NCBI GenBank assembly: GCA_947176295.1
Contig: CAMWQB010000005.1
Location: 1 to 59,683, forward strand
Length of the DNA stretch: 59,683 nucleotides
Source of the DNA: an uncultured Porphyromonadaceae bacterium
GTDB taxonomy: Bacteria; Bacteroidota; Bacteroidia; Bacteroidales; Muribaculaceae
Reading direction: 5' to 3'
The notes under the pieces were generated by a model, which saw only the letters and a program-made list of their open reading frames with translations, was not told the DNA's origin and searched no databases. Position 1 is the stretch's first letter, and every line of letters begins with the position of its first letter. Of this stretch, positions 16,384 through 46,042 are shown in pieces. Made by a program: the position numbers and the translations under genes.

Positions 16384-17976
16384 ATGAAAACTATTACAAA
16401 ACTGGCCTTAGGGGCAGCCTTGGCTCTCCCTGCGGCTATGAACGCACAGGACCTTCCCGTGCTGATCGAGAATCGTGCCTATTATTCGACCAATGCAGAC
16501 GGGGCAGTCGGCAAAGCCGGCAACATCACTATCGACGGAAAGTTCGACGACTGGAGCGAAGACATGATTGTGGCTACCTGCGGCGCCAACGACATGGCCA
16601 CGGCCTTCAAGGGCTCGCATGAGAATTCGGTGCTGGACATCTATGCCATCTATGCCGCCTGGGACGACGCGAACCTCTACCTTGCATGGCAGATGTGCAA
16701 CACCGGCGACACGTGGGCTCGCCCTGGCGATGGCCCTCTGACCGACGGTGGCCGCATCGGCAATGTGCCTCTGGTGGTTACGCTTTCGATAGACCCCTCT
16801 ACTCCGGGGATGAACGGCAAGGTGAAGGACGGTCGATTTATCTGGGGCGAGGCCAAGAGCGGCGTAAGCTACTCGAGCCATGTGGATCACATCTTCATCA
16901 TGAGCGGCCAGGGCTATCAGGTGAATGCCGGCGCGTCGATGTTCACGGCTATAGATGCCAACGGCAATACGGAATATGACAATCCTTCGTGCTGCAAGAA
17001 TTTCAGCAGCCTCGGTGTGAAATATGCTTTCGGCGAAGGCTTCCAGCCCTCGCACCTGTGGCGCCAGAAAATGTATGCCGACTATGACGCCGGCGGCAAC
17101 CTGGTGTCGGACCCGAGCGTTCTCGAGAGCATCTACGACCCCGAATGCTACGACAATCTTCTGGGCTCGCCCTACCCTTCGAGCCTGAAGGCACACGACA
17201 AGAAATATGATACGTTCTATGAGATGGCCATCCCCTACACGGCTCTGGGCATCAACCGCAGCTGGCTGGAGGCAAACGGCATAGGCTTCCGCGTGGTGGC
17301 AACCCGCGGCGAGAGCGGCATCGACTGCTGCCCCTTCGACCCATCGATGGTGGACAACGTCTTCGAGTCTTATTCGGCCGACAAGTCGACTTCTCACGAG
17401 AAGGACGATATTGACGTAATCACCTACGAACTTGCTTCGGTAGGCCACATGCGCACCGGCTCGGTGGATCCCGTTCCGAACCCCAACCCGAACCCCAATC
17501 CCAATCCGAATCCTAATCCCGAACCCGAGCCTATCCCTGACGGAGCATGGGTCGCTTACTTCAACAATTCTTCGTCGAACTGGGGTAAGGTCTACGCATA
17601 CGTCTGGGACGACAACGCAGCAGGAAGCGACGCAAAATATCTTGGCTCATGGCCCGGCAAGGAGCTGAGCAAGGATGCCGCAACCGGCTACTACAAGGCT
17701 GCCGTGGAGGTGGACGACGCTGCCGGCAAGAAGATGATGATAATCTTCAACAATGGAAGCGGCACGCAGACAGGCGACCTTGAATTCAAGCACAATGGCA
17801 TCTACACTTCTGCAGGCCATACGGGCGAATACGTGAGCGGGGTGGCCGCTCCGGCGATAGCGGCAGAGGGCGAAACGCAGTATTTCAACCTTCAGGGAAT
17901 GCCTGTGGCAAATCCTTCGACGGGTGTCTACATCGTCCGGAAGGGCAATGCCATAAGCAAGGTGTACGTGAAATAA
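16384..17976 (+). CDS. Secreted multi-domain carbohydrate-binding protein with T9SS-like tail
   Basis: 530 residues from ATG 16384, which begins the signal peptide (MKTITKLALGAALALPAAMN, then AQ). Domain 1 (about 25-355) resembles CBM9/DOMON-like sugar or haem binders: ITIDGKFDDWSED, then YAAWDDANLYLAWQ. A linker of (Asn-Pro) repeats follows (about 366-380, NPNPNPNPNPNPNPEPEP). Domain 2 (about 385-480) looks like a starch-binding CBM26-type module: VYAYVWDD, YLGSWPGKEL, MMIIFNNGSG. The C-terminus YFNLQGMPVANPSTGVYIV with a final KVYVK is a short T9SS type A-like sorting tail. No catalytic domain is seen, so it is probably a surface glycan-capture protein. Monocistronic. Confidence 0.78.
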   Translation: MKTITKLALGAALALPAAMNAQDLPVLIENRAYYSTNADGAVGKAGNITIDGKFDDWSEDMIVATCGANDMATAFKGSHENSVLDIYAIYAAWDDANLYLAWQMCNTGDTWARPGDGPLTDGGRIGNVPLVVTLSIDPSTPGMNGKVKDGRFIWGEAKSGVSYSSHVDHIFIMSGQGYQVNAGASMFTAIDANGNTEYDNPSCCKNFSSLGVKYAFGEGFQPSHLWRQKMYADYDAGGNLVSDPSVLESIYDPECYDNLLGSPYPSSLKAHDKKYDTFYEMAIPYTALGINRSWLEANGIGFRVVATRGESGIDCCPFDPSMVDNVFESYSADKSTSHEKDDIDVITYELASVGHMRTGSVDPVPNPNPNPNPNPNPNPEPEPIPDGAWVAYFNNSSSNWGKVYAYVWDDNAAGSDAKYLGSWPGKELSKDAATGYYKAAVEVDDAAGKKMMIIFNNGSGTQTGDLEFKHNGIYTSAGHTGEYVSGVAAPAIAAEGETQYFNLQGMPVANPSTGVYIVRKGNAISKVYVK

Positions 17977-18162: not shown

Positions 18163-21000
18163 ATGAAAAAACAAGTACTCGCGCTCACAGTGGCCCTTGG
18201 TCTTGTCGGCAGCTTCACAGCCAATGCCGTTCCTGCCAAACGTGGCCTGAGAGACATAGCCCAACCGGATGGCACGACCGTGAAGGCCGAGCTGGTTGGC
18301 GATGAAAATTTCCACTATTTCCTGAGCGAAGACGGGCTGCCTCTGGTGCAGAAGACCGACGGTGCGCTCCATTACGTGAAACTGGGCATCAATGGCGAGC
18401 TGGTCTACAGCCCGATGACAGCGGAGAATGCAGTGCGCAGGAGCTCAGCGGCAAAAAGTTTTACAAGCGGTGTCAATCGCGAAGCCGTTGCTGAAGCCCT
18501 CTACAAAGAGCGTACGCAGGCTAAGGCCAAGAGTCCCCGTCGGACGATAGCTCAAAGCGGAATGGGACTGTTTTCGGGGAATTTCCCTCGCAAGGGCGAT
18601 ATACCCGCGCTGGTGATTCTCGTGGAGTATAAGGACGTGAAATTCACACATCCTAATCCTGCGCAGTATTTCGGGGATATGATCAACAAAGAAGGCTTCA
18701 ATGAATACGGCGGCACGGGTTGTGCGCGGGAGTATTTCCTGCAGCAGTCGGGAGGTCTTTTCCGCCCACAATTCGAGGTTTTCGGGCCCGTAACTCTTCC
18801 CGAGACGCAGGCATACTACGGAGGCAATGACTACTGGGGCAACGACATGTGTCCTGAGGATATGCTTGTTCATGCAGCCAAGATTCTCGACGATGAAATT
18901 GACTTTTCGAAATATGACCTCGACAACGACGGGCGCGTGGACAACGTGTTTATCTTCTATGCCGGTCAGGGCGAAGCTTCGTATGGGGCAGCCAACACGG
19001 TGTGGCCTCACTCCTGGGAGCTATCGAGCGGCGGCAAAGCCTTCTCGCTTGACGGAAAAATCTTGGACCGCTATGCCTGCACCAACGAATGGGAGCAGTC
19101 GCGCCCCGACGGTGTTGGAACGTTTATTCATGAGTTCTCGCACGTGATGGGTCTTCCGGACCTATACAACACCGTAAACGGCGCTGTGAATACGCCCGAC
19201 TCGTGGAGCGTGATGGACTACGGCCCATACAATAACGACGGCTGCACGCCTCCGAACTACTCGATCTACGAGCGCAATGCCATGGGCTGGATTGAGCCTA
19301 AAGTGCTGGATGGCCCCGATAGCGTGATCCTCAATGAAATCGGCGAGAGCAATGAGGGCTGCATCATCCTCACGGAGAAGCCGACGGAATTCTATCTGCT
19401 CGAGAACCGCCAGCAGAAGGGCTGGGACCAATACATTCCTGGCCACGGAATGCTGATCTGGCACATCGACTTTGTGCAGAGCGTCTTCGATCGCAATGTG
19501 GTGAACAACAGTGCGAGCCATCAATACGTAGACCTCGTGGAAGCAGGCGGGGTTGCCAATTCCACGAATCCCTCGACACTGGCCACCTACTCGTGGCCGG
19601 GCACGCGCAACAAGACGTCTTTCACGTCGTCGACATCGCCTGCTCTCAAAAGCTGGGCAGGTAAAGCCATCGACGTGCCTATCACAGAGATAAAGGAAAT
19701 CGACGGTGTGATAAGCTTCGATGTATGCGGCGGCCAGGTGGAACTGACCCAACCGACAAACGTAATGGCCGAAGGCCACGACAACGGCACGGCCAGCTTG
19801 AGCTGGGATGCTGTGGCTCAGGCCAAGGGCTACCGTCTGAATCTCTACACCAAGGACGCCTCGGGCGAAGCTGAGAATTACGCATTGAAGGACTACTACA
19901 CGACGTCCACGGAATATACGGCAGAGCGCCTTGCTTCCGGCGCCACATACTTCCTGACGGTGACGGCTGTTGCGGGTAACTACACGAGCGAGGAATCAGA
20001 GGAAACGGAATTCACGATGCCAGAACTGGCTTGGGACTACATGATTCCTCAGACAATGGAGTCATATGCCACCAACAACCTGGACGGCTTTACGGCATAC
20101 TGGAAGAAGGTGCCTGGCGCAGTGAGCTACATCCTTGATGTGGAAGTGGAAGCCGGCGACGGCGAAAAGACCGATGTGGCAAATTTCGGCAGCAACGAAA
20201 CCCTGGAGCTGCCCACGGGCTGGCTCTGGACCGGCTCGGGCGTATACAGTGGCGTGAGCGTAGGCTACTATGGCGAATCCGCTCCGGCCCTTAAGTTCTC
20301 CTCCACGGGCCACTCTCTCACCACGAGTTTCTTCGACTTCCCCATCTCGAAGGTTGAATGGTGGGAACGCGGGGCTTCGGCAGATGCAGGGAACAAGCTG
20401 AGCCTGCAAGGCCGTGCGGATACGTCGTCGGACTGGGAGATAATCTATGAAGTGAATCCCACTCTCGACAGCAAGGGCGAAACCGTGAGCGTAACGGAAA
20501 TTCCCGAACACGTGCGCCAGCTGCGCTTTGTCTTCAACAAGGTGCGCGGCAATCTTGCCTTCGACGATCTGGGTATCACGACAATAGCTTCGGTTGTGAA
20601 GCCTCTTGAGGGCTACACGGCCAAGAATGTAGGCGATACGGACCATTACCTTGTGAACCTCGGAACGGAGCTGCCCAAGTCTTGCTACTTTACGGTGAAG
20701 GCTGTGAATGCCGACGGAAAGGCTTCGATGGCTTCGGATAAGCGTAAGGTTTCTCTGGACAATACGTCGGGGATCGAAAGCCCTGTCTTCGGAGAAAGCG
20801 CCAATGCCTTTACTCTCTCGGGCCTTAATCTGAACTACTCGGGCGCTACCGACGAACTCGTGCAGGTATTTAACGCTTCGGGTATGCTCGTAGGCTCAGC
20901 ACGGACCGACAAGGACGGCAACGCCAGCATTCAGCTGCCTGCATCGGGGCTCTACGTGGCGGCTACCGCTTCGGGCGCCACGAAGCTCCTTGCCCGATAA
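18163..21000 (+). CDS. Secreted M6 family zinc metalloprotease with FnIII domains
   Basis: 945 residues from ATG 18163, which starts the signal peptide KKQVLALTVALGLVGSFTAN. An M6-type propeptide follows (about 28-80: QPDGTTVKAELVGDENFHYF). The catalytic domain (about 145-525) has HEFSHVMGLPD at 323-333, the HExxHxxGxxD zinc site, plus WSVMDYGPY and a Ca-binding-like DLDNDGRVDNV. After it come an FnIII domain and a second FnIII that seems split by a jelly-roll-like insert (about 665-800, ending FNKVRGNLAFDDLGI). The C-terminus, ASGLYVAATASGATKLLAR, resembles a T9SS tail. An upstream extension to 18067 overlaps the promoter and is rejected. Likely a surface or secreted peptidase. Confidence 0.92.
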   Translation: MKKQVLALTVALGLVGSFTANAVPAKRGLRDIAQPDGTTVKAELVGDENFHYFLSEDGLPLVQKTDGALHYVKLGINGELVYSPMTAENAVRRSSAAKSFTSGVNREAVAEALYKERTQAKAKSPRRTIAQSGMGLFSGNFPRKGDIPALVILVEYKDVKFTHPNPAQYFGDMINKEGFNEYGGTGCAREYFLQQSGGLFRPQFEVFGPVTLPETQAYYGGNDYWGNDMCPEDMLVHAAKILDDEIDFSKYDLDNDGRVDNVFIFYAGQGEASYGAANTVWPHSWELSSGGKAFSLDGKILDRYACTNEWEQSRPDGVGTFIHEFSHVMGLPDLYNTVNGAVNTPDSWSVMDYGPYNNDGCTPPNYSIYERNAMGWIEPKVLDGPDSVILNEIGESNEGCIILTEKPTEFYLLENRQQKGWDQYIPGHGMLIWHIDFVQSVFDRNVVNNSASHQYVDLVEAGGVANSTNPSTLATYSWPGTRNKTSFTSSTSPALKSWAGKAIDVPITEIKEIDGVISFDVCGGQVELTQPTNVMAEGHDNGTASLSWDAVAQAKGYRLNLYTKDASGEAENYALKDYYTTSTEYTAERLASGATYFLTVTAVAGNYTSEESEETEFTMPELAWDYMIPQTMESYATNNLDGFTAYWKKVPGAVSYILDVEVEAGDGEKTDVANFGSNETLELPTGWLWTGSGVYSGVSVGYYGESAPALKFSSTGHSLTTSFFDFPISKVEWWERGASADAGNKLSLQGRADTSSDWEIIYEVNPTLDSKGETVSVTEIPEHVRQLRFVFNKVRGNLAFDDLGITTIASVVKPLEGYTAKNVGDTDHYLVNLGTELPKSCYFTVKAVNADGKASMASDKRKVSLDNTSGIESPVFGESANAFTLSGLNLNYSGATDELVQVFNASGMLVGSARTDKDGNASIQLPASGLYVAATASGATKLLAR

Positions 21001-21007
21001 GATAATT

Positions 21008-21076
21008 GCACCCCCGCCCGGGCGGGGGTGCGTCCTTCTTGGCATTTCTTCTGTGGGAAACGTGCCGAAGGCACGT
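21008..21076 (+). terminator. Two hairpins after the M6 protease gene
   Basis: A perfect 24-nt palindrome at 21008-21031 (GC-rich), followed by a T-poor tail, and a second hairpin at 21060-21076 (ACGTGCC-GAA-GGCACGT). Probable termination or mRNA stabilisation between the two M6 paralogues; the lack of a long T-run makes read-through possible. Confidence 0.6.
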
Positions 21077-21166
21077 CAATAGAAACGGGGCGGGCACGGG
21101 TTTGGAGACGCGCGAGGGCACGTCGCTACTTAATTGAAATACAGATTATTGAACTAACTATTCCGG

Positions 21167-23671
21167 ATGATTAAAAATTTACTTCCTGCCTTGATTGTAT
21201 CCGCGTTGTTGACGGGGCCTGTCCAGTACATGTCTGCGGCCGACGGCCCGGGCTTGCCTCTTCGCGGGAGCATTCCTTCGATAAGCCCTTCTGATGAGGG
21301 GAGCCCGATCCTTGTGATACTTGTGCAATACAAGGACATAAAGTTCACTCACCTGAACCCGGCCCGATATTTCGGAGACATGATGAATGTGGAAGGGTTC
21401 TCGGAGCTCGGGGCACGAGCTTGTGTGCGGGAATATTTCGAGAGCCAGTCGGGAGGTAAGTTCCGTCCGGTATTTGAGGTCCAAGGGCCGGTTACGCTGT
21501 CGCAAAACCGCTCGTACTATGGCTCGAACAGCACGTCGGGTGCAGACAAGGCCCCGGAGGACATGTATTTGCACGGAGCGTCGGCCATCGACGCGAGCGT
21601 GGACTTCTCGCGCTTTGACAATGACGGAGACGGAAAGGTGGATAATGTGGTGATAATCTACGCCGGACCCTCGGAAGCGGACAGCGGCCTGACTTCGTGC
21701 GTGAAGCCTCATGCGGGGTCGTTGGCCGAAAAAAAGAAGAGCATGACCCTCGACGGGGTTTCGCTGGATAAATATATCTGCCTGAACGAATGGGATGGCG
21801 GTCATCCAACGGGTCAAGGGCCAATAGTCCGAGTGCTATGCGAGGCACTGGGACTTCCCGGTCTTGGGCACACTACCGAGGTCGGTGCTTCGTTCACACC
21901 CGGGCCATGGAGCGTTATGGACCGCGGCCACCTTGCAGCGGAAGGGATAGCCCCTGTGGGGATGTCGCTTTTCGAGCGTTATGCCCTCGGGTGGGCGCAA
22001 CCGCGGATAATCGACGGGCCGACAACGGCAAGTCTGGCACCGCTGGGCGAGAGCGGTGAAGGCTACTTGCTTCCGACCGAGCGCAAAAATGAGTTCTTCC
22101 TTCTCGAAAACCGCCAACAAACCGGCTATGATACCGAGCTTCCGGGCCATGGGCTGCTGATATGGCATGTGGACATGAACCGCCCCGAGGGTATGACGTC
22201 AGGAGTAAACGACATTGCCTCTCACCAGTATGTGGACATCGTCGAGGCCTGCGGGGAAGCGAATATGCACAGTCCTGAAATCGTGGAGGCTTACACCTGG
22301 CCACGGCCTGACTGCGCCGGCTTCGCTCCGATGAGTTGGGGCGGAATCGATACAGAACTGCCTATCACGGAAATCCAGGAAGACGAAAACGGCAGGGTGA
22401 GCTTCCTGGTGTGCGGTGGTGCCCGCGACCTTTCCACTCCCGGAAAGCCCGAAGTGGAGGTGTCGGCTAATGGTGAGGCACGTATAAGCTGGACGGCGAC
22501 GGAAAGCGCTGAAGGATACATCGTCGGGCTGTCGCATGCCGCCACAGGCGCTCTCAGCGAAACGGCATGCACAGAAACGAGCCTCACGATAGCGGGGCTC
22601 AAAAACGAAGAGAGCTACAGTGCGCGGGTGCGAGCCGTGCGCGACAATATTCTGAGCGAGTGGAGCGAGGCAACAACGTTTGCCATCCCTGCCGCAGGAT
22701 GGGCCCAGACGGCACCGGAAGCCGAAGCCGAAGCCGAATTTGAAGACTATCGCTTTGAAGCCAGATGGAAGCCTATGGCCGGAGCAGTGTCGTATCTTCT
22801 AACCATTGTAGGAGACCACGGGCGCGGCGAAGAGGAAACCTTTATAGATTTCGGATTCAGGAACACCACCTGCGTAGAGCTTCCGGCAGGCTGGGAATGG
22901 AGCGGCGATGAGGCCGACCTCTATTTCGGCAACTCCACGGGCTTCTATGGCGACAGCGCACCGGCCCTGAAGTTCGACAGCTTCGGCTCGAGACTTACTT
23001 CTCCGGGTAACCAAGGCACGAGGGTGAGCCGACTTGAGATGTGGGTTCGCGGAGCTCAAGGGGCCGAAGAAAGTGCGCTCGTCGTGGAAGGACTTGCCGG
23101 GGAAGCCCGCAAGCAGGTGGCACGCATCACTCCCCCGACGGAAGAGGGGAGCACAATCGTTATCGATAATTTTCCGACGGGCACAGAACGAGTGAGCCTC
23201 GTGTATGAAAAAATCGTGGGGAATCTTGCCATAGACGACCTGCGGCTGACCACGGTGCACACATTGCCTACGCCGCTCGAAGGCTATACGGAAAAGAACG
23301 TGGGCCTTTGCGAGAGCCACACTGTGGAGCTCAATCATCCTGTTGCACCGGTCTACCACTATTACGTCCAGGGAGTGGATGCGAACGGACTTGTAAGCGT
23401 GCGCTCCAATGCGGGCGTGGTCCTCGTTCCGGAGTGGGCAGGCATAGACGAGCCGGCTGTGGCGCCCGAAGGCGGAGAGCTACGTTTGACAGCCGGCGGC
23501 GTGGCGTATTCCGGCGGCCGCCGGGGCGATATCGTGCGCGCATACTCAACGACAGGCCTTCTCTGCGGAGAGGCGGCAGCGGATGCCAACGGAAATGCGG
23601 AGCTTAAGCTTCCCGCCGGGCTCTATGTAGTGGCGGCTCCCTGCGGAAGTGCGAAAGTGCTGGTGAAATAA
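21167..23671 (+). CDS. M6 peptidase-like secreted protein, predicted catalytically dead
   Basis: An 834-residue tandem paralogue of the preceding M6 protease. A signal peptide (NLLPALIVSALLTGPVQYMS) leads almost directly into the peptidase-like domain; the propeptide is missing. The fold is clearly retained: SPILVILVQYKDIKFTH, FDNDGDGKVDNVVIIYAG, WSVMDRG, ENRQQTGYDTELPGHGLLIW. But the zinc site HExxHxxGxxD is replaced by RVLCEALGLPG (222-232): both His, the Glu and the Asp are gone while the flanking G-L-P is kept. FnIII and jelly-roll regions follow, ending PAGLYVVAAPCGSAKVLVK, a T9SS-like tail. The frame is intact over 2.5 kb, so it is not a decaying gene. Probably a non-enzymatic binding or decoy protein. 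Confidence 0.88.
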   Translation: MIKNLLPALIVSALLTGPVQYMSAADGPGLPLRGSIPSISPSDEGSPILVILVQYKDIKFTHLNPARYFGDMMNVEGFSELGARACVREYFESQSGGKFRPVFEVQGPVTLSQNRSYYGSNSTSGADKAPEDMYLHGASAIDASVDFSRFDNDGDGKVDNVVIIYAGPSEADSGLTSCVKPHAGSLAEKKKSMTLDGVSLDKYICLNEWDGGHPTGQGPIVRVLCEALGLPGLGHTTEVGASFTPGPWSVMDRGHLAAEGIAPVGMSLFERYALGWAQPRIIDGPTTASLAPLGESGEGYLLPTERKNEFFLLENRQQTGYDTELPGHGLLIWHVDMNRPEGMTSGVNDIASHQYVDIVEACGEANMHSPEIVEAYTWPRPDCAGFAPMSWGGIDTELPITEIQEDENGRVSFLVCGGARDLSTPGKPEVEVSANGEARISWTATESAEGYIVGLSHAATGALSETACTETSLTIAGLKNEESYSARVRAVRDNILSEWSEATTFAIPAAGWAQTAPEAEAEAEFEDYRFEARWKPMAGAVSYLLTIVGDHGRGEEETFIDFGFRNTTCVELPAGWEWSGDEADLYFGNSTGFYGDSAPALKFDSFGSRLTSPGNQGTRVSRLEMWVRGAQGAEESALVVEGLAGEARKQVARITPPTEEGSTIVIDNFPTGTERVSLVYEKIVGNLAIDDLRLTTVHTLPTPLEGYTEKNVGLCESHTVELNHPVAPVYHYYVQGVDANGLVSVRSNAGVVLVPEWAGIDEPAVAPEGGELRLTAGGVAYSGGRRGDIVRAYSTTGLLCGEAAADANGNAELKLPAGLYVVAAPCGSAKVLVK

Positions 23672-35705: not shown

Positions 35706-36551
35706 ATGAAGAAGCTTGCACCATTTATTGCCATAATGTTAGCCATCTGCGTGGCCTCATGTTCCGCGCCCAAGCAGGTTGCCTACATCCAGAAAGTAGA
35801 TGAAATTCCTGTAGAAGTAATTCAGCAAATCCCAGCTCCGACAGACCCCATCCTTATGGCCGGCGATCTGTTGAACATTGATCTGCAAGGTGCTGATCCC
35901 GTGGCCTTGGCACCGTTTAATAAAGGCTCTTATGTCGACGCAGATGGGCGTTTTACTCGTATGTCCTCTTCTAATCAAATCTCCGGAGGAAGCGGAGCTG
36001 AATATAGTACCTTCTATTATCTGGTTGATTCCGAGGGTTATATTGATTTCCCTATGCTTGGGATGATACATGTTGCAGGCATGACAAAGAATCAACTTGC
36101 GCAAGAAATTACAAACGGAGTATATCCACGTTATGTAAAGGAGCGTCCAAGCGTAGATGTACGTCTCATGAACTTCCGTGTAACAATGCTTGGCGCCGTC
36201 CGAACAAATGGACAGATTCAATCAAAAAACGAACGCCTCAATATTCTCGAAGCTATTGCAATGGCGGGCGATCTCGACATTCAGGCTCAACGAACAAACG
36301 TTCTTCTTTATCGTCTAAATGCTGACGGGAAACGTGAATTGCACCGTATTGACCTTACGGACAAAAATCTGTTACTTTCTCCTTTATATAATCTCCAACA
36401 AAACGACATTATTTATATAGAGCCTAACAGTTCCCGAAAAAATAATGCCTGGACACTGAATCCTGCTGTTGGTGCCGTACTTACAGTCGTCGGCGGTTTA
36501 TCATCTATTGCAGGTCTCATAATCGGTATCGTTAACCTCACAAAGCTTTGA
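35706..36551 (+). CDS. wza: Polysaccharide export outer-membrane lipoprotein (Wza type)
   Basis: 281 residues. Lipoprotein signal LAPFIAIMLAICVASC with the lipid Cys at residue 19. A Poly_export (PES) domain follows: DPILMAGDLLNIDLQGADPV and STFYYLVDSEGYIDFPMLGM, then a SLBB domain MTKNQLAQEITNG...VDVRLMNFRVTMLGAV and ILEAIAMAGDLDIQAQRTNV. A C-terminal helix (GAVLTVVGGLSSIAGLIIGI) fits the outer-membrane exit helix of Wza. Forms the capsule or exopolysaccharide exit channel with the kinase that follows 6 nt later. Confidence 0.93.
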   Translation: MKKLAPFIAIMLAICVASCSAPKQVAYIQKVDEIPVEVIQQIPAPTDPILMAGDLLNIDLQGADPVALAPFNKGSYVDADGRFTRMSSSNQISGGSGAEYSTFYYLVDSEGYIDFPMLGMIHVAGMTKNQLAQEITNGVYPRYVKERPSVDVRLMNFRVTMLGAVRTNGQIQSKNERLNILEAIAMAGDLDIQAQRTNVLLYRLNADGKRELHRIDLTDKNLLLSPLYNLQQNDIIYIEPNSSRKNNAWTLNPAVGAVLTVVGGLSSIAGLIIGIVNLTKL

Positions 36552-36557
36552 TTTAAA

Positions 36558-38996
36558 ATGGCAGACGAACGAACAAAAGAAAGTAATACTTCTGTAAAAT
36601 CTGAAGGATTTGAAGAAGGCTTCGATGTGATGGGCCTTCTAATGGACTATCTGTCCCATTGGAAATGGTTTGTCATTTGCGGTGTCATCGCATTAGCTTG
36701 TGCGTATTATCATTACGCAACGATTATACCAACATACTCCGTCAGCGCTTCAATTTATCTCAGTGATGATAAGAATACGACGACGAAGGCAATGGCCATG
36801 ACCGGGTCGCTGGTCGACACTAAAAATTTCATCGACCAAACGGAATTGGAAATCCTCCGAAGCCGCAATTCGGTGATAAAGATTGTCGACTCCCTGAATT
36901 TAGCTTATAGCTATGCTTATAAAGGGCGCTTTCGTAACAGACCTATTTACGGATCCAATCCTGTTCAAATACGTCTTGACTCAGTATCCCTTCAAAATCT
37001 TCGCTCTCCCATTAAAGCTGAGATTGATCGGACCGGAGATAATAAATTCAGCATTAAAATAACGACCTATTATTCAGGCGAGAAAGAAGAAAAGACTTTC
37101 AAAGATGCAAGTTTGCCTTTAGAGGTTGAACTCTCTCAGGGTACACTTACAATTTCTAATACACCCGGAGCAGGAGTATTGAACAATACCCTTTATGCCA
37201 CGGTTAACAACCGCATGGCGGTTGCAAGCCGCATTTCAGGCTCCTTAAATCTTGCATTTAATTATAACGCATACAATATTATTAACATCACTTGTCGTAC
37301 CCCTGTAATCGAAGAAGGTGTTGATATTGTAAATGCCCTTATCGACTTCTATAATCGTCAGATCATCGAGGATAAAAATAAGTCTGCCATTCAGACAGAA
37401 GCATTTATTCTGGATCGACTTGTGATGATTTCAGGGGAACTACGTGATGTTGAAAACAGACTTCAGGAATACCGTCAGAAACATCAGATCGTAGACTTAG
37501 GAGCTCAGGCAAGCATGAATCTCAGTCAGAAAACGAGCTACCAGACAGAACTGACAAATATTGATGCCGAACTCCGGATGCTTGATGACATCGAGCGTAT
37601 GGTATCGACTGCTGATATATATGAGACCCTTCCGTCTGCCGTTTCCGACAACACTATCGGTTCGATGATCGAAGCATATAACCGTAAGGTGATTCAGTTG
37701 AATCGCACATTACAGGGTTCTACACCTGATAATCCTCTTGTTACGAAAATGCAGGAAGATCTGTCGCATGACAAGTATCGTCTTCTTTCAAATATTGCTT
37801 CGACGCGTAAAGTAATCAACACACGCCGCGGCACGATCCAATCTCTTGAGAACAGGAGTGAAGGGCAGCTTTCGTCCTTGCCGCCGATTGACAAGGGGCT
37901 TCAGGAGATTTTCCGCGAACAGCAGGTAAAGGTAAACATTTATACATTCCTTCTCCAGCGTCGTGAGGAAATTGCGCTCCAGAAAACACTTGCCACCAAT
38001 ACCGCACGCCTAATCGACAACCCCGTAGGATCCGGACCGGTTGCTCCCGACCGGAATCAGATTTTGCTGATGGGACTTATCATCGGATTGCTTATACCGG
38101 CAGTAATCATTTTCCTCCGTCGCCTTCTGTTCCCGATTTTCAAAGATCAGGAAGAACTGGAGCGTATTACTTCCGTTCCTATTCTCGGAGAAATATGCCG
38201 TGTTGGAGCATCCAAAGGCTCTGACGAGGTTATCATCGGAGAAAATGTTTCCACCCCGGCAGCAGAACTTTTCCGACTGCTGCGCAACAATATCGGGTTT
38301 ACCAAACACGGCACTGAAAATCAGGTAATCCTCATTACATCAGCCGTATCCGGTGAAGGTAAAACATTCGTGGCTGTAAATCTGGCAATGACTTATGCTT
38401 TAACGGGTAAAAAGACACTTGTAATCGGTCTTGATATCCGTCGGCCGGCGCTGGCGCACAGATTCCATCTCAACAATCAAAGAGGCGTAACGACCTATCT
38501 GTCCGGACAAGAGAAGGACATTAACAAACTCGTTCACCAGTCCACGATCAATCCGAATTTGTACATTCTCCCTGCCGGTCCTGTTGCTCCCAATCCCAAT
38601 GAGTTGCTGATGGCGCCGACAATGGATGAAATGATGAAACAGCTCCGGGAGGAATTCGATTATATCATTATTGACTCGGCTCCTGTGGGCATTGTCTCGG
38701 ATACGTTCCTCATTCTTCGCAATAGCGACCTACAGATATTCGTTACGCGAGCCAACTACTCGTCGAGACGTGGACTTCGCGTTCTGCACCAGGCCATCAA
38801 GCAGGATAAGTTCTCAAAAGTATATATCGTGCTTAACGGTGTGGATATGGGCTCGGGCTCTTATCTCTATCGTCGCTACGGGCAGTATCGTACATATGGC
38901 GCTCAGGGTCGCTCCTATGGATACGGATACAACTCCGAAAAAAACAAATCCGGCCATCACCACCATCACCACAATAGCGAAGAAAAGAAAGATTGA
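36558..38996 (+). CDS. wzc: Wzc-type chain-length regulator and BY-kinase
   Basis: 812 residues. Wzz domain with membrane helices at about 36-55 (WFVICGVIALACAYYHYATI) and about 505-525 (ILLMGLIIGLLIPAVIIFLR); periplasmic coiled coils in between, including DRLVMISGELRDVENRLQEY. The cytoplasmic bacterial tyrosine kinase has Walker A VSGEGKTFVAVNLA, Walker A' LVIGLDIRRPAL and Walker B YIIIDSAPVGIV. The C-terminal Tyr cluster (about 773-792, YLYRRYGQYRTYG...YGYGYN) is the autophosphorylation tail. It ends with a natural run of six His (800-805). It controls polymer length and export with Wza. Confidence 0.94.
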   Translation: MADERTKESNTSVKSEGFEEGFDVMGLLMDYLSHWKWFVICGVIALACAYYHYATIIPTYSVSASIYLSDDKNTTTKAMAMTGSLVDTKNFIDQTELEILRSRNSVIKIVDSLNLAYSYAYKGRFRNRPIYGSNPVQIRLDSVSLQNLRSPIKAEIDRTGDNKFSIKITTYYSGEKEEKTFKDASLPLEVELSQGTLTISNTPGAGVLNNTLYATVNNRMAVASRISGSLNLAFNYNAYNIINITCRTPVIEEGVDIVNALIDFYNRQIIEDKNKSAIQTEAFILDRLVMISGELRDVENRLQEYRQKHQIVDLGAQASMNLSQKTSYQTELTNIDAELRMLDDIERMVSTADIYETLPSAVSDNTIGSMIEAYNRKVIQLNRTLQGSTPDNPLVTKMQEDLSHDKYRLLSNIASTRKVINTRRGTIQSLENRSEGQLSSLPPIDKGLQEIFREQQVKVNIYTFLLQRREEIALQKTLATNTARLIDNPVGSGPVAPDRNQILLMGLIIGLLIPAVIIFLRRLLFPIFKDQEELERITSVPILGEICRVGASKGSDEVIIGENVSTPAAELFRLLRNNIGFTKHGTENQVILITSAVSGEGKTFVAVNLAMTYALTGKKTLVIGLDIRRPALAHRFHLNNQRGVTTYLSGQEKDINKLVHQSTINPNLYILPAGPVAPNPNELLMAPTMDEMMKQLREEFDYIIIDSAPVGIVSDTFLILRNSDLQIFVTRANYSSRRGLRVLHQAIKQDKFSKVYIVLNGVDMGSGSYLYRRYGQYRTYGAQGRSYGYGYNSEKNKSGHHHHHHNSEEKKD

Positions 38997-39037
38997 ACAT
39001 CAATAGGCTGAAGCACAGCTGAAACTGAAACATAGGA

Positions 39038-39084
39038 CTTTCCACCCTCGGGGCCACTACGAGTGGCTCCCGGGGTGGAAAATT
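39038..39084 (+). terminator. Terminator after wzc
   Basis: Long GC-rich hairpin, arms near 39040-39058 and 39062-39080 (TTCCACCC...GGGTGGAA), loop ACG, followed by AATTTATT. It closes the wza-wzc transcript. Confidence 0.85.
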
Positions 39085-39101
39085 TATTCTAAACACTATC
39101 C

Positions 39102-40337
39102 ATGCAAGCATCTGTCGGAAATCCACGCTCAATAGAGATTAAAGATTACAACTACCCTTTGCCTCAGGAACGTATTGCCATACATCCGCTGACCCAACGA
39201 GATGCATGCAAGCTTCTATTCAGAGACGCGGAAGGGAAGATACATGATGATATTTTTTCGGATTTACCGGACTTACTTCCGGGGAACTCGGTGTTGGTCT
39301 ATAACAACACCCGCGTAATAAATGCAAGGCTTAAGTTCCGAAAAGCCTCTGGAGCTCAGATCGAGATTTTTTGCCTCGAACCCACGGATCCATCGAATTA
39401 CGAACAGTCGTTTGCATCGACAAGTGAGTGCTCCTGGAGTTGCCTGATCGGAAACTCGAAAAGATGGAAAGAGGGCCCCTTATCGATGAAGGTATACCTG
39501 CAAGGTGGTAGAGAAATCCTCCTTCAAGCCACCCGAACCGGGCGAAACGGAACTGACGGCTCTCCGGAAGTAAAATTCTCCTGGGATGGAGATGTTTCTT
39601 TCAGCGAAATAATAGGTGCGGCAGGAGAAATACCTATTCCGCCATATCTCAATCGCGCTTCAGAGCATTCCGATAGTTCTGATTATCAGACTATCTTCTC
39701 CCATATAGAAGGCTCCGTAGCTGCGCCAACGGCCGGACTGCACTTTACTGATAAAGTCTTGGAGAGCATAGACAGAAAGGGCATTATCAGACGTGAAGTA
39801 ACACTACATGTGGGGGCCGGAACGTTCCGCCCGGTCAAAGCCGAGAATATCGGCGACCATGAAATGCACAGTGAGTTCATCACCGTGAGCAGAAAGCTGA
39901 TAGCAGAATTGCGTGATTTTCTAAATGAAGGTCGCCCTATTATTGCCGTAGGGACCACGAGTGTACGCACGCTTGAAAGTCTCTACCACATCGGATGTGC
40001 TATCGCAGAAGGAAGACCGTGCGACGAATTGTCTCAATGGTCGCCATACGAATTCCCGTCAAGCCTTTCGCCAGCGGATGCATTGGATGCGATAATCCGT
40101 AGGCTTGATAAAGTGGGTCTCGATACATTGAATGCATACACCCGAATCATCATCGCACCCGGGTATACATATAAAATCGTAAGCGGCATGATAACCAACT
40201 TTCATCAACCGCAATCTACCTTACTGCTCCTTGTGAGTGCATTCATAGGAGAAAGCTGGCGAGACGTATACCGGCACGCATTGGACAATAATTACCGATT
40301 CCTTAGCTACGGGGACGCGTGCCTGTTCATGCGATAG
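39102..40337 (+). CDS. queA: tRNA preQ1(34) S-adenosylmethionine ribosyltransferase-isomerase
   Basis: Transfers the ribosyl part of SAM to preQ1 in tRNA, a late step in queuosine synthesis. 411 residues, in the longer Bacteroidota form. Motifs: DYNYPLPQERIAIHPLTQRD, LPGNSVLVYNNTRVINARL, GEIPIPPYLNRASEHSDSSD, EGSVAAPTAGLHFT, LHVGAGTFRPVKAENIGDHE, MHSEF and AVGTTSVRTLESLY, with GMITNFHQPQSTLLLLVSAF at the end. Other queuosine genes are not in the window. Confidence 0.95.
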   Translation: MQASVGNPRSIEIKDYNYPLPQERIAIHPLTQRDACKLLFRDAEGKIHDDIFSDLPDLLPGNSVLVYNNTRVINARLKFRKASGAQIEIFCLEPTDPSNYEQSFASTSECSWSCLIGNSKRWKEGPLSMKVYLQGGREILLQATRTGRNGTDGSPEVKFSWDGDVSFSEIIGAAGEIPIPPYLNRASEHSDSSDYQTIFSHIEGSVAAPTAGLHFTDKVLESIDRKGIIRREVTLHVGAGTFRPVKAENIGDHEMHSEFITVSRKLIAELRDFLNEGRPIIAVGTTSVRTLESLYHIGCAIAEGRPCDELSQWSPYEFPSSLSPADALDAIIRRLDKVGLDTLNAYTRIIIAPGYTYKIVSGMITNFHQPQSTLLLLVSAFIGESWRDVYRHALDNNYRFLSYGDACLFMR

Positions 40338-40365
40338 ATTAGTCAGACCAATAGCAATTTACGAA

Positions 40366-40731
40366 ATGGACATAGCAATGGTTCGAGACTATTGTCTCAG
40401 CCTCCCCTTAGCAACCGAGGACACTGCATTTGGAGATGATATACTTCTTTTTAGAGTATGCGAAAAGATATTCACATGCATTTCGTTGGAGAGGCCGGAT
40501 TTATTTGTCGTGAAATGCGATCCGGACTACGCTATTGAGCTAAGGGACCGATACCACGAAATAGCACCTGCATGGCATTGGAATAAGAAATATTGGAACG
40601 AAGTGAGCCTGCGTGGAGAACTATCCGAAAATTTCATGCTTAGTCTTATCCGCCATAGCTATGCAGAGGTAGTGAAAAAACTTCCCCGCCGCATCCGCAA
40701 TGAGTATCCGGAAACAGGCATTATAAGCTGA
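40366..40731 (+). CDS. MmcQ/YjbR family protein
   Basis: 121 residues. The CyaY-like fold of the MmcQ/YjbR family is indicated by VRDYCLSLPLATEDTAFGDD, ILLFRVCEKIFTCISLE, LFVVKCDPDYAIELRDRY and WHWNKKYWNEVSLRGEL, ending SYAEVVKKLPRR. It is sometimes called DNA-binding, but the role is unproven. It lies 28 nt after queA and may be read with it. Confidence 0.9.
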   Translation: MDIAMVRDYCLSLPLATEDTAFGDDILLFRVCEKIFTCISLERPDLFVVKCDPDYAIELRDRYHEIAPAWHWNKKYWNEVSLRGELSENFMLSLIRHSYAEVVKKLPRRIRNEYPETGIIS

Positions 40732-40791
40732 GCCCACTTTAAGACCCTCTTATTATGATTGGCCCATATATGAGGAAGCACTAATTTTTTG

Positions 40792-40799
40792 TATCTATG
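40792..40799 (+). promoter_or_regulatory. Possible -7 box before the nuclease-like ORF
   Basis: TATCTATG, one mismatch to TAnnTTTG, 23 nt before ATG 40823, in an AT-rich leader. Confidence 0.35.
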
Positions 40800-40822
40800 T
40801 TAGGATTAATTGAGGATAATGT

Positions 40823-41650
40823 ATGGAAAATAACGGGAATAATAAATCGAGGAAAAAGTCCGGACGAGATGGGTATATATATTTCGGTTGTGTGGGGGGT
40901 GTGTATTTTTTTATTAAGGCTGACGGGGGATTGAAGGATCTTAATCTTGGGCAGCTTCACAATAACATGCCTAAGTATTTATGCACAGATGACTTTGGGC
41001 GTAATACGGGGAGCGGCCAGGCTTTCGAAGATGTTTTTTATAAAATCTGTAAGTCTGCAGGATCGGATATTTGCAAGGTTGAGGAGATGAAAAATGGTGT
41101 AGACTTCTACCTCGATGGAATTCCTTGCCAACTTAAATATGGTCGTTCGGCCAAGAGTGTATTTCAAAAAATGTTCGATAAAAAGACCGGGGAATACCGA
41201 TATCCAGGTCAGACAATAATAACAAATGTTGAAATCGAGGGGGAATTAAGAGAGCTAATTGAACTGAACCAGGACCGATTCAAGGGGGAACAGATAATTA
41301 TAAATCCTGCGGGGACGCCTAAAATAACAAGGAAAAAAGTTGACGAACAATTTCGCCGAGGCTTCGCTTCATTAAAACTTGACGCAAAGGATATTATTAC
41401 TGATTCTGGTTCGCAAAAGAAAATTGCAATCGGGATTTTAGTATCGTTTTGCACAATCATTGGATTGGGCGCGATTGTCGAGTACCGAAAAATTGAAAGT
41501 AGCGAGAAAGCTACGGTCAAAAAGATAGGGAAGGCGGTAAGAATATCGTTCCGAAAGCACTGGAAAAAGGGCTTGGCAGCATCTCTCGCTACTGCCGGGG
41601 TAATATTTTGCAAGCATCTCTATGGTCGTCAGATGCTACGCCCTAAATAA
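40823..41650 (+). CDS. Unfamiliar protein with PD-(D/E)xK-like motif and C-terminal membrane segments
   Basis: 275 residues; I do not recognise the family. The N-terminal 20 residues are basic/polar. A region at 60-110 reads GQAFEDVFYKICKSAG, then NGVDFYLDGIPCQLKYGRSA. The order E69, D94, Q103-x-K105 fits the PD-(D/E)xK nuclease core (helix E, strand D, strand Q/E-x-K). The C-terminal part has a membrane helix (about 200-221, KIAIGILVSFCTIIGLGAIV) and a second hydrophobic stretch (about 249-263) separated by a basic segment. Codon use is AT-richer than the chromosome average and a MITE-like element follows, suggesting acquisition. A membrane-linked nuclease or defence effector is one possibility only. 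Confidence 0.65.
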   Translation: MENNGNNKSRKKSGRDGYIYFGCVGGVYFFIKADGGLKDLNLGQLHNNMPKYLCTDDFGRNTGSGQAFEDVFYKICKSAGSDICKVEEMKNGVDFYLDGIPCQLKYGRSAKSVFQKMFDKKTGEYRYPGQTIITNVEIEGELRELIELNQDRFKGEQIIINPAGTPKITRKKVDEQFRRGFASLKLDAKDIITDSGSQKKIAIGILVSFCTIIGLGAIVEYRKIESSEKATVKKIGKAVRISFRKHWKKGLAASLATAGVIFCKHLYGRQMLRPK

Positions 41651-41730
41651 AGGGAAACTGTGTATGCACGATAATTCCGTAAGAACTTCGCGATTTTCTT
41701 TTCAGGGAGTGAAAATCCGGTCGAAATTTA

Positions 41731-41857
41731 AGGCTGTGTCAAATTTCGGGAGTATAAAATCATCTCATTTATAGGGCTACTAAAGCATTGCTGCTCAGCA
41801 AAACGCGCCTGAGGCACGTCCCTGCAAACGGGTGAATTCCCTAATTTGACACAGCCT
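41731..41857. mobile_element. MITE-like element with 15-bp perfect terminal inverted repeats
   Basis: AGGCTGTGTCAAATT at 41731-41745 is repeated inverted and exact at 41843-41857; just inside, TCGGGA and AGGGA (reverse read) continue the similarity. The length of 127 bp, the absence of coding capacity and the GGCTGTGTCAAA-type ends (as in several transposase families) fit a miniature inverted-repeat element. No clear target duplication is visible. It lies between two convergent genes and could also fold as a terminator. Confidence 0.65.
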
Positions 41858-41887
41858 CCTTGTTGTAGGATAAGTGGTATAAGTGAA

Positions 41888-44800
41888 TTATTTTATGCGG
41901 ATGCGGCAGGCGTGGCCGTCGGAGTGGCGGATGATGTATATGCCGGGGGTGAGACAGGATTCTGCCAAGGGGCCTTCATAGAGAATGACACCCTGCAAAT
42001 TGATTATCTGGACCGACACGGGAGCGTCCACGGCAACTCCTTCCACGCCGCTGCTGAGTTTCACATGGAGCTCGCAGGTGGCTGCCACGCCGCTGCCATC
42101 GGTCGCACGTGCCGTGATTACGGCAAGGCCCTCGGAAACGCATTCTACGAAGCCGTTTTCGTCAACAAGGGCGACGCCTTCGTCGGAGCTTGTCCATTCC
42201 AGAGTTTTGTTATCGGCTATCTCGGGAAGCACGGTTGCCACAAGCTGCACTGTTTCATCCAACCCGAGAGTGAGACTTGCCGGGTCGATTGCAATGCTCT
42301 CGACGGGCACTTCGGGATCCGTATCATTGTCAAGACCGGGTGCAGTCCAGCGCAGATAGGGCTTGCCGACATTGATGTCGGCGCGACGACCCCAAGTAGT
42401 CTCGAAATCAAAGCCGGTGAAAGAGGCCATTCTCGTCATTTCGAAAGAACTCAATGGCGAGCCCATGAGATAGGGATTTGTGCGCTCGGTCCATGAAGAA
42501 GAGACGGGCCCGAAGGCTTCGTCGAGCGAAGTCTTGTCGTAGAAGACGTTCTTGTTCTCGGCATTATAGTCGCCATAGGCAGCCCCACCGGGGATGGCGG
42601 ATACGCCTTCGGCCCACTTCCAGTCGATGGAGCTTTCGCACCACGAATTCGTAAGATGAGTAGGAGAGATGTACGGGTAATTCTGATTGCAAACGATGCC
42701 TCCAAACCGGCCGTAATCCTCCCACTGCACGTCTGTGCGTGCGAAGCAATTTTCGATATCGCCTTTGGTTAAATATACCAGTCCGCCGAATCCTTGCTTC
42801 TTGAGGGAAGCCTCGACAAGGGCATAACATTCGCTGAGAAGTGCCGTCTCACGGACATTCATCTCGCCGACGAGACCACCGACATATCCACCGTCCTGCG
42901 CAGCCCCTGTGATGAGGATTTTGCCTTCAGCGCCGCAGCGGTATACAGTGCCTTTCGAATACCCTACGAGGAGTGCGACTGTGGGATTATCCTGTGTGAA
43001 ACCAACTTCGACAAGAGCATTTTTCAGAACGACATTCTTAATAGAGCCGGCCTGATCGAGAGAGGTGAACATACCGAATGTAGAGCTGCCCATGGTTTCA
43101 TTGATGTATAGGCCGGAGATGGAGTAGCCCTGACCGTCGAATATGCCTGCAAAGCCAAAGGAGCCGTTGCCAATCGGGGAGAAAGGTTTAGGCCGGACAC
43201 TTTGGCCCCATGAATCGAAATCGTCGGAATCGTTGAGCTCGATGTCGTTCCCGAGGCGTATTGTGTAGCCATCGAAATAGGTCTGGTCCACTTCCTGCGA
43301 CTTGCCGTTCACTATATTGGCAAAGGCATAGAGCTGAGCGGGAGTTTTGATGGTGTAAGTCTTGGTGAACCGATTCTTGAAAGGCGTGTAATCAGGGACA
43401 ATCACTTCCTCCCACTTAGCCTCAAGAGCAATTGGGGCTTTTACGCGATTCAGGGCGAAATCGAATACCTTTCCTGTGGCAACATCATACCATCCTCTCA
43501 GAGAAAGGCCATCCGGAATCTGAACATCTGGAGCGACGATGAGACTTCCGGAAATCGCTTTGGTGGAGATGGTGGTTTCGCTGTCGACGACGAACATAAC
43601 ATCGACAGTGGGAGCAAGCCCGGAGAAGGAAGCGAGAGAGCCCTGCGTATATCTCCAAGGCGAAACATCAACGCCGGCCACGGAGGAGGCATAGGTGAGT
43701 TGGTTTACAAATTCCGGGCTCTTCATATAAGCCTCCGTGCGGCCCAGGGAATAATGCTCGTACAGGCCATCTGTGGGGAAGCCTTCGAAGGAGAAGTAGG
43801 AATTTTCCACGACACATTCATTGAAAGGATCGGGAATACGTCCATAGCCATTGGGGATGAACTTGCCTGCAAAGTAGCTTGCTGAGAGGTATATGGGCAT
43901 GTCGCCGACAATGCCTTGTGCAAAGAAAGCACCGCCATGGTCGGAACTCTGAATCTCGGCCGTGGTATAGCAGTTGGTGATATTTGTGCGTCCCCACTGG
44001 CTTCCGGAACCGAGAAGGCCGGATGTAGAGAAACCTTCGATATGTCCGGAGGTCCAACATTCAGAAAAGTTTCGCGTACCGTTGCTGGAGTCGTTCCACA
44101 GAGCTGCAGAACCTGCGAGAATGCCTGCATATCCGGAGTCCATGACAACGAAAGCATCCGTAACTCCAAGGCGCGAGATAGTTGCGCCATCGCCTATCAC
44201 GCCGAAGAAACCTGCATATTTCTTTACATTGTTGTCGAGATACATGTTGCTCACGGAGTGGTATCCACCATCGTAATTGCCGCAGAAACGGAATGAATTT
44301 CCGAAATCCGAAGGAAGGGCGATCGGTGTCCAGAGCTCAGGCATCTCTTCGCCCCACTCTTCCATAGGTGCATTCAGTGCAATATCGGCAGCCTGGAGGA
44401 AATATTGTCCTATGAAATCCCATCCGTGGTTGGTAATGTCGGCAAGATTCACGAGATGCTCTTTTTCAGACACGACGAAAGGGTCTGAAGCCGAGCCTGC
44501 ACCGCCGCCGAAAGGAGAGTCGGAGACTGAAGCGATCACACCCGTGGGCACGGGGTATTGGCCCGGACGATACTGCCATAGACTTGCTCCCATTACGGCG
44601 GCCATGCGGTTGAGCTCACTGACGAATGCCTCCGATTGCATGTAGGCCGTGGTAAGGCCGAACTCATTGGGGAGGGGCAATTCACCATCCTCGGCGGATG
44701 AAATCGTATTGATTCCTGTGGCTGTATCCGAATTGTAGAAGCAGTTGGCCGCCTGCGATGTTTCGCTTATCGAATTTGCAAAACCGCCGATGTGATTTCC

Positions 44801-46042
44801 GGTAGTCATCATGCCAGATGGAATAGGCTGATATGAGTAAGAGCTCACGCCGAAACAGTTGCGAACCCTGCCGGGCGTCCATTCCAGGTCACCCGGGTCA
44901 TAAGAGCCGATGTTGCCTACAAACGAAGCCATCCATACTTCATATCCGTCCTTGGAAATATTGCAGGTGGAGTATGACGACTCGATAAGTCCGTCCATCC
45001 ACACTGTTCCGCAGAAACCTGCGCCGTTGCCTGAAACGGTGAGCGAGCCGGAGGCGCTGCAGAGGCGCACAGTGCCACCACTGATGGTGCCCACAAAGCC
45101 GCCAATGTCAGATCCGGTCCTCTTACCGGAAAGCTGGACTACCGCCGAAGCAGCCGAGCAATTTTCGACCAGACTGCCATCGGAAACGAAGCCGACAAAG
45201 CCGCCGGCATTGCGGATAGCTGCGGCGCGCCCGGCAGCTGAACAATCGCGGACAGTGGTAGATGCTAACGAACCGGCCAGGACACCGGCTGACGAAACAG
45301 ACTTCACGGAAGCCGAAGAGGCGCATCCTGTGATAGTGGAGCCAGTGGCTTCGCAGACGATACCGCCGCCCTGTCCACCCATAGTCTCGCTTGAGCCACA
45401 GGCAATGCTTCCGCCTTCGACGGTGATACCCGAAAGCACAGAATTAATGGCTGTGCAGACGAGCGCGGCTCCCTTTGCCTCGCACTGAATCATGGGATTG
45501 ACCAATTTGAGGTTCGAGATAGTGGCGCCGTCTATGCTCCCGAAGAGCGCTTTATACCAGCCTTCGAAATCGTAGGTCGTGTCATTGAAAGGATCGTTGA
45601 AATTCTCCTCAAATTCCGAGTCATGCGCATACCAGAGGTCATGGATAGCAAATCCGGCACCATCGAAGTTGCCTTTGAACCAATGCTCATCATTATAGAA
45701 TCCGCCGGGATTTTCCTCGACATCTCCATTCTGAAGCGATTTCATGCCGATGGGCTCCCATAGCGGCTTCTTGTCATCGGCCATATCGGGGTTGCTGAGA
45801 TAGAGCTCCGCAGTGAGGCGGAAATAGACGCCTTCGAAAGTTTCACCGGCGTTCACACGCTTGGCCATGCCGGCGAGCTCGGCAGGTGTCGAGATGAGAT
45901 AAGGGTCGCCGGGGGTTCCCTCACCGCTCCAATCCATATCCGCCGTCCCGTCCCACACTGTGTGTGTCTGAGCAGACACACACGGCGAGGCCAGCCCGAC
46001 GCACAGAATCAGCAACAAAAAATGAATAAATCTTTTGTTCAT
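41888..46042 (-). CDS. Giant secreted repeat protein (GLUG-like repeats, BIG2 domain, T9SS-like tail)
   Basis: 1384 residues, signal peptide NKRFIHFLLLILCVGLASPC. Three blocks open with the same theme, for example YLISTPAELAGMAKRVNAGE, DPFVVSEKEHLVNLADITNH and YTIKTPAQLYAFANIVNGKS. Each is followed by nested GLUG-like beta-helical repeats (GGFVGTISGGTVRLCSASGS, GGLVGEMNVRETALLSECYA). One InlB-B/Listeria-Bacteroides-type repeat lies near residue 860-930 (LSLRGWYDVATGKVFDFALN). A BIG2 Ig-like domain is near 1240-1330 (SIAIDPASLTLGLDETVQLV). The tail VQIINLQGVILYEGPL...TPGIYIIRHSDG...IRIK resembles a T9SS sorting domain. Likely a surface adhesin; no catalytic motif seen. Confidence 0.82.
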   Translation of the reverse strand: MNKRFIHFLLLILCVGLASPCVSAQTHTVWDGTADMDWSGEGTPGDPYLISTPAELAGMAKRVNAGETFEGVYFRLTAELYLSNPDMADDKKPLWEPIGMKSLQNGDVEENPGGFYNDEHWFKGNFDGAGFAIHDLWYAHDSEFEENFNDPFNDTTYDFEGWYKALFGSIDGATISNLKLVNPMIQCEAKGAALVCTAINSVLSGITVEGGSIACGSSETMGGQGGGIVCEATGSTITGCASSASVKSVSSAGVLAGSLASTTVRDCSAAGRAAAIRNAGGFVGFVSDGSLVENCSAASAVVQLSGKRTGSDIGGFVGTISGGTVRLCSASGSLTVSGNGAGFCGTVWMDGLIESSYSTCNISKDGYEVWMASFVGNIGSYDPGDLEWTPGRVRNCFGVSSYSYQPIPSGMMTTGNHIGGFANSISETSQAANCFYNSDTATGINTISSAEDGELPLPNEFGLTTAYMQSEAFVSELNRMAAVMGASLWQYRPGQYPVPTGVIASVSDSPFGGGAGSASDPFVVSEKEHLVNLADITNHGWDFIGQYFLQAADIALNAPMEEWGEEMPELWTPIALPSDFGNSFRFCGNYDGGYHSVSNMYLDNNVKKYAGFFGVIGDGATISRLGVTDAFVVMDSGYAGILAGSAALWNDSSNGTRNFSECWTSGHIEGFSTSGLLGSGSQWGRTNITNCYTTAEIQSSDHGGAFFAQGIVGDMPIYLSASYFAGKFIPNGYGRIPDPFNECVVENSYFSFEGFPTDGLYEHYSLGRTEAYMKSPEFVNQLTYASSVAGVDVSPWRYTQGSLASFSGLAPTVDVMFVVDSETTISTKAISGSLIVAPDVQIPDGLSLRGWYDVATGKVFDFALNRVKAPIALEAKWEEVIVPDYTPFKNRFTKTYTIKTPAQLYAFANIVNGKSQEVDQTYFDGYTIRLGNDIELNDSDDFDSWGQSVRPKPFSPIGNGSFGFAGIFDGQGYSISGLYINETMGSSTFGMFTSLDQAGSIKNVVLKNALVEVGFTQDNPTVALLVGYSKGTVYRCGAEGKILITGAAQDGGYVGGLVGEMNVRETALLSECYALVEASLKKQGFGGLVYLTKGDIENCFARTDVQWEDYGRFGGIVCNQNYPYISPTHLTNSWCESSIDWKWAEGVSAIPGGAAYGDYNAENKNVFYDKTSLDEAFGPVSSSWTERTNPYLMGSPLSSFEMTRMASFTGFDFETTWGRRADINVGKPYLRWTAPGLDNDTDPEVPVESIAIDPASLTLGLDETVQLVATVLPEIADNKTLEWTSSDEGVALVDENGFVECVSEGLAVITARATDGSGVAATCELHVKLSSGVEGVAVDAPVSVQIINLQGVILYEGPLAESCLTPGIYIIRHSDGHACRIRIK

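Follow-up and report, generated by a model that had tools for sequence, protein, structure and literature searches.

Why would a genome keep, next to a gene for an intact M6 metalloprotease, a second M6 gene whose zinc site has gone? The question is raised by a 59,683-nucleotide stretch of an uncultured Muribaculaceae bacterium (contig CAMWQB010000005.1, here called the window), in which gene 1 (18163..21000, plus strand), for an active-type M6 metalloprotease of 945 amino acids, is followed by gene 2 (21167..23671, plus strand), for an inactive M6 homologue of 834 amino acids. These are the only M6 matches in the window's genome, which is about 94% complete. Judging from sequence comparison, we consider it rather likely that gene 2 encodes a secreted pseudoprotease that arose by tandem duplication of gene 1 and acts as a binding protein, either on the cell surface or in free form.

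Two M6 genes and one zinc site

The frame of gene 1 is open throughout, with its start taken at 18163, and scores 198.4 bits on TIGR03296 (cut-off 110.8) and 53.4 bits on PF05547 (gathering score 22). Its AlphaFold2 model has a mean predicted local distance difference test (pLDDT) score of 89.6. M6 enzymes need the motif HExxHxxGxxD; zinc ligands and a general base make up the chemistry of this enzyme class. The original prediction, made from the DNA letters of the window, had read this motif in gene 1 as HEFSHVMGLPD at residues 323-333, and both translation and alignment place it there (19129..19161, plus strand), within the M6 domain.

Gene 2 had been described as an intact 834-residue frame that keeps the fold motifs, and this description holds. 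The frame is open from end to end and scores 130.7 bits on TIGR03296, above the curated cut-off for an M6 domain, and 21.8 bits on PF05547, just under the gathering score of 22; the predicted-structure model (mean pLDDT 88.3) has the M6 fold. The two proteins align unambiguously at 41% identity across 823 columns, and WSVMD, DGxVDN and ENRQQ are present in both. Searching a structure database with single protein sequences returned matches of the fibronectin type III (fn3) kind only; a profile search found 4yu5 (best 60 of 173 matches). At the zinc site the alignment gives RVLCEALGLPG in place of HExxHxxGxxD (residues 222-232; 21830..21862, plus strand), again as predicted, and in the models this segment overlaps predicted helix 217-227 of gene 2, the counterpart of helix 318-328 in gene 1. 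On its sequence, the gene 2 product is a homologue of the M6 peptidases and not an M6 peptidase.

The M6 domain of gene 2 occupies residues 40-417 (21284..22417). Within it lie an acidic loop, DNDGDGKVDN (21617..21646), a putative calcium site most of which also stands in gene 1 and in the two copies of a second species described below, and PWSVMDRG (21905..21928), presumably the region of the Met-turn, with a derived Arg that is common to the inactive copy of that species. The ligand roles that we give to individual residues of the zinc site are likewise presumed. Downstream are an fn3 domain and a second fn3 domain interrupted by a jelly roll (22421..23437), followed by a C-terminal domain that resembles a type IX secretion signal (23438..23668), all on the plus strand.

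An N-terminal propeptide had been claimed for gene 1 and its absence claimed for gene 2, and the evidence agrees on both counts. The propeptide region of gene 1, at about residues 24-126 (18232..18540, plus strand), is without counterpart in gene 2; residues of about 30-123 are folded in the AlphaFold2 model, and the gene 2 model has no such region. An xDG-type motif ahead of the site, sought with a loose regular expression, is found in 119 of the 122 active-type homologues whose frames start at least 280 residues upstream (10 further active-type frames start too late to judge). Gene 2 begins directly ahead of its M6 domain, its frame opening 3 codons before the ATG (28 codons in the second species), and because only 166 bases separate the gene 1 stop from gene 2 there is no room for a propeptide of about 100 residues. 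The bases preceding the start codon of the inactive gene are alike in the two species, CTATTCCGGATG, which supports the start of gene 2 and hence the missing propeptide.

The same pair in a second species and the loss of the site

A search for the same active/dead pair in related genomes, named as a check alongside the original prediction, covered 49 genomes of the genus including the window's own (48 with matches). The pair was found in one further genome, G037 (record CAMWNH010000002.1), where an active and an inactive M6 copy adjoin as they do in the window and the surrounding gene order is the same. The recurrence of the pair, with its gene order, in an independent record led us to reject an assembly or annotation artefact. 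The site of the G037 inactive copy reads KLILHELGLPM, with the first His, the Glu and the Asp lost and the second His retained; the claim that all zinc ligands are replaced therefore holds for the window copy but does not extend to its orthologue. The propeptide is absent from both inactive copies, in keeping with the suggestion that its loss fits the loss of activity, and both losses predate the species split.

Between window and G037 the two flanking genes on each side of the pair are 77-92% identical and genes farther upstream 55-86%; the active M6 copies are 62-64% identical and the inactive copies 50%. By these sequence comparisons, the M6 pair is among the fast genes of the shared block, but other genes of the block are also fast. 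A search of 397 genomes sampled from the family gave 860 bits for the G037 inactive copy and, among the matches listed, no more than 491 bits for any genome other than G037 and the window's own. An exact degenerate DNA pattern for PWSVMDRG, which detects only copies with the exact derived Met-turn, occurs in 2 of the 397, the window's genome and G037. A scan of 84,980 named species with two exact peptide patterns, which reaches near relatives only and may leave out the window's own genome, returned the G037 locus alone.

The substitutions in the inactive copies are concentrated around the site. From 50 active-type homologues we took the 93 M6-domain columns with conservation of 90% or more. 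Gene 2 departs from 24 of them, including all four catalytic columns (p = 0.0036; 0.030 for losses common to both inactive copies). Across residues 320-364 the window copy loses 13 of 23 columns against 11 of 70 elsewhere (hypergeometric p = 0.00026) and the G037 inactive copy 13 of 23 against 17 of 70 (p = 0.0052), p values that are optimistic because the range was picked after the losses had been seen. A stricter set, drawn at 95% conservation or more from 55 active-type homologues, comprises 54 M6 columns. Of these, 43 survive in the window copy and 42 in the G037 inactive copy, and the catalytic four give p = 0.0010 for the window and 0.0084 for the common losses; H323, E324, D333, Y335, W281, Y356, G145 and A238 are lost in both.

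To set these losses in context, M6 frames were surveyed at the site in the M6-domain matches of the genus search and in 49 loci of other family genomes (the strongest among the matches listed), a sample that is not every M6 gene of the family and in which weaker or more distant inactive copies may be missed. It comprises 140 distinct frames, 3 of them from loci of the family NF052323 discussed below. H, E, H and D are all kept in 133 of the other 137; the remaining four are made up of the inactive pair and of two frames that are truncated or lack coverage there. Ligands lost at random in scattered relatives, a pattern that would have told against the prediction, were thus not seen.

In a maximum-likelihood tree of 57 M6 domains the inactive copies group together (100/100) beside the two active copies (98/80), with the placement of long rows such as the G037 inactive copy being unsure. 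Branch lengths are 1.55 for the inactive stem, 0.28 for the window inactive copy, 1.57 for the G037 inactive copy and about 0.2 for the active copies. Rates were measured as the ratio of branch length at codon positions 1+2 to that at position 3; the active-pair stem has almost no position 3 length and hence no ratio. For the M6 domain the ratios are 0.24 and 0.14 on the active copies, 0.57 on the inactive stem, 0.20 on the window inactive copy and 0.49 on the G037 inactive copy; the corresponding values for the C-terminal half are 0.45 and 0.30, 0.48, 0.38 and 0.35. The burst therefore fell mainly in the protease domain, after which the window copy was constrained again and the G037 copy less so. 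Identity within the inactive pair and within the active pair is 53% and 80% in the catalytic region, 55% and 80% in the rest of M6, 49% and 50% in the second fn3 domain, 51% and 58% in the adhesin jelly roll, and 44% and 46% in the C-terminal domain.

The rate of nonsynonymous change (dN) lies well below that of synonymous change (dS) in pairwise comparisons by both NG86 and maximum likelihood, several NG86 dS values being undefined through saturation; this was another of the checks named for the second copy. When neutral drift was simulated from 814 gene 1 codons, 0 of 200 copies were stop-free at 0.05 changes per site and none at higher rates. Gene 2 thus combines lost catalytic residues with signs of being kept by selection, namely two species with intact frames, dN below a saturated dS and site-centred losses. 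It is apparently an intact, selected pseudoprotease, not a decaying gene, and probably a working non-enzyme rather than junk.

Possible roles of the inactive copy

In the history that we favour, gene 1 would have been duplicated in tandem in the ancestor that the window organism shared with G037, and the new copy would then have changed rapidly and lost most of its zinc site. Both inactive copies have other residues in place of the first His, the Glu, the Asp ligand and the adjacent Tyr and Trp, so this step is most simply placed before the species split; the second His would have gone later, in the window lineage only. Without zinc ligands and catalytic base, which are the chemistry of this enzyme class, the gene 2 protein should be unable to cut peptide bonds. 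The M6 fold may instead serve as a scaffold or as a surface that binds peptides or proteins, with the fn3 and adhesin modules holding the protein on its target. We favour a secreted binding protein because the parts that stay conserved are the fold, the adhesin-like module in the C-terminal half and the very C-terminus.

At that C-terminal end, both inactive copies keep all 6 columns that show conservation of 80% or more among the homologues. The window's genome has a PorU-type sortase, with two matches over the cut-off (797 and 453 bits) in a search confined to the sortase among the components of the type IX secretion system (T9SS). The type A sorting domain TIGR04183 (cut-off 23) reaches 14 bits in gene 1 and 21.3 in the G037 active copy, both short of the cut-off, and is not listed for gene 2 at E-values up to 1 or for the G037 inactive copy at E-values up to 0.01. 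A variant C-terminal T9SS signal in gene 2 is possible, and T9SS export of its product is probable from these features; signal peptides were judged by eye only. Of the secreted pseudoprotease originally proposed, the pseudoprotease is borne out as an intact, apparently selected and non-decaying gene, present as the same pair in a second species within one clade, and secretion is probable. The roles named with it, binding protein, inhibitor decoy or chaperone, are candidates between which the results do not discriminate.

Several observations weigh against this reading. The inactive copy was found in two species only, with none further in the 49 genus or 397 sampled family genomes. For G037 taken alone, the loss of at least three of the four catalytic columns is a weak signal (p = 0.097 with 93 columns, 0.031 with 54), and the long branch (1.57) and elevated ratio (0.49) of its inactive copy are compatible with relaxed constraint in that lineage. 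The inactive copies also have M6-domain position 3 branches about twice as long as the active ones (0.91-0.93 vs 0.38-0.46), which means that replacement accounts for only part of the acceleration, and the first fn3 domain is likewise less conserved in the inactive pair (39% vs 54% in the active pair). Active-type homologues make up most of the alignment behind the gene 2 model, which is biased towards their fold, and dN/dS is only indicative because dS is saturated.

Some of these points could be explained if gene 2 were non-functional and decaying under relaxed selection, as the long branch and elevated replacement ratio of G037 and the narrow distribution over two species would suggest. Such decay fits poorly with frames intact in two species, dN well below dS, a C-terminal region and adhesin module that are kept and an active-like ratio on the window branch, and we think it quite improbable. 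A decoy that soaks up host or competitor protease inhibitors or antibodies in place of gene 1 would make use of the retained M6 fold and, with the propeptide gone, of a cleft open from the start. W281, Y335, Y356, N358 and P364 are nevertheless lost in both copies, and since the conserved positions around the cleft changed most, a mimic of the active cleft is unlikely, and we give the decoy very little credence. The least credible of the alternatives is a new catalytic or metal-binding role at a relocated site: a possible ligand occupies the second-ligand position in each inactive copy (Glu in that of the window, His in that of G037), and the two share His235 shortly after the site, but the site helix and the loop after it hold no shared set of three candidate ligands, and the first His is replaced by Arg or Lys.

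The arrangement of the genes raises the further idea that gene 2 encodes a dedicated partner of gene 1, as regulator, folding helper or inhibitor of the active protease. Gene 2 adjoins gene 1 on one strand in both genomes where it was found, and cases of pseudopeptidases regulating their active counterparts are known (PMC11266112). Tandem duplication already accounts for the adjacency, however, and the catalytic region, with 53% identity between the inactive copies against 80% between the active ones, falls well short of what a conserved interface to gene 1 would predict. The genes are also separated in both species by a hairpin. In the window it is GC-rich (21007..21032, plus strand), a consensus match only with a weak T tail, in a region with 10 terminator-like sites against 6.1 expected, and in G037 a hairpin followed by T was seen by eye. 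We therefore hold a dedicated partner to be unlikely. A fuller version, to which we give slightly less credence still, is a matched protease/pseudoprotease system in which the propeptide-free inactive twin would guide, guard or restrain its active neighbour outside the cell, the pair being recent enough for the steps of inactivation to be read from two species.

Known relatives and neighbouring genes

Gene 2 differs from the active M6 peptidases (PF05547, TIGR03296) in the absent HExxHxxGxxD and the missing propeptide. Its closest parallel in kind is NF052323, an NCBIfam family of T9SS-dependent M6-like inactivated metalloproteases, which like gene 2 has a Bacteroidota M6-type domain with the catalytic residues lost and, going by its name, a T9SS signal. 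Of 296 genomes sampled from the phylum, 109 have a match above the NF052323 cut-off, each listed with one gene (only two candidates were scored in any genome), and this breadth suggests an important role; the window's genome has no match at an E-value of 1e-60. Against the cut-off of 600 bits, gene 2 scores 27.7, the G037 inactive copy 26.4 and gene 1 55.1. At the four site positions eight NF052323 loci have A, Q or S, S and D, with the Asp kept, compared with R/K, V/L, E/H and G/M in the inactive pair. Descent of gene 2 from NF052323 was rejected as unlikely because gene 1 outscores gene 2 on the model and the replaced residues differ. An inactivated kind of M6 protein is thus already known, curated and widespread in the phylum, and gene 2 appears to be an independent case of it.

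In the accessible part of a study of S24-7 Bacteroidales from the gut, 20 of the 30 genomes are reported to have an M6 protease and 22 to have the full set of ten T9SS components (PMC4936053); no inactive copy is mentioned in that part. On our inferred placement of the window in S24-7, gene 1 looks like one of these secreted M6 proteases. A review of metallopseudopeptidases describes inactive metallopeptidase homologues with binding and regulatory roles, and its available text is without the terms 'M6 family', 'family M6' or 'immune inhibitor' (PMC11266112). Among the papers listed in our literature searches we recognised none on an inactivated M6 protease and none on NF052323, and those listed for zymogens included nothing on M6. 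At this locus the conversion of an enzyme to a non-enzyme can be followed stepwise, with the active parent adjoining, three of four catalytic residues lost in G037 and four of four in the window, and the propeptide lost too. Together with NF052323 it indicates that the M6 fold turned non-enzyme at least twice in Bacteroidota, which makes a binding function of secreted M6 folds, apart from proteolysis, testable.

The surroundings of the pair hold some further features. Just upstream of gene 1, at 16387-17976, is a gene whose product looks secreted and combines a starch-binding CBM26 module with a linker of Pro-Asn repeats; the gene is syntenic in G037. Between its inactive M6 gene and the DUF308 gene, G037 carries some 1.5 kb of additional DNA (L061 8488-10057; also L004 3976-5472), and a small minus-strand frame within it (L004 4048-4635) has no match among the window frames. 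Farther along the window, G+C content falls to 0.42-0.48 at 36001-42000, compared with 0.50-0.62 in the other 2-kb steps. This stretch carries genes for a polysaccharide export protein and a Wzz/tyrosine-kinase-like protein (35706-38996), a queuosine synthesis gene (39102-40337) and a 275-residue frame without a Pfam match (40823-41650), and resembles an exchanged surface-polysaccharide locus. A frame of 1384 residues on the minus strand at 41888-46042, which matches GLUG and Big_2 and, weakly, List_Bact_rpt, probably encodes a large surface protein.
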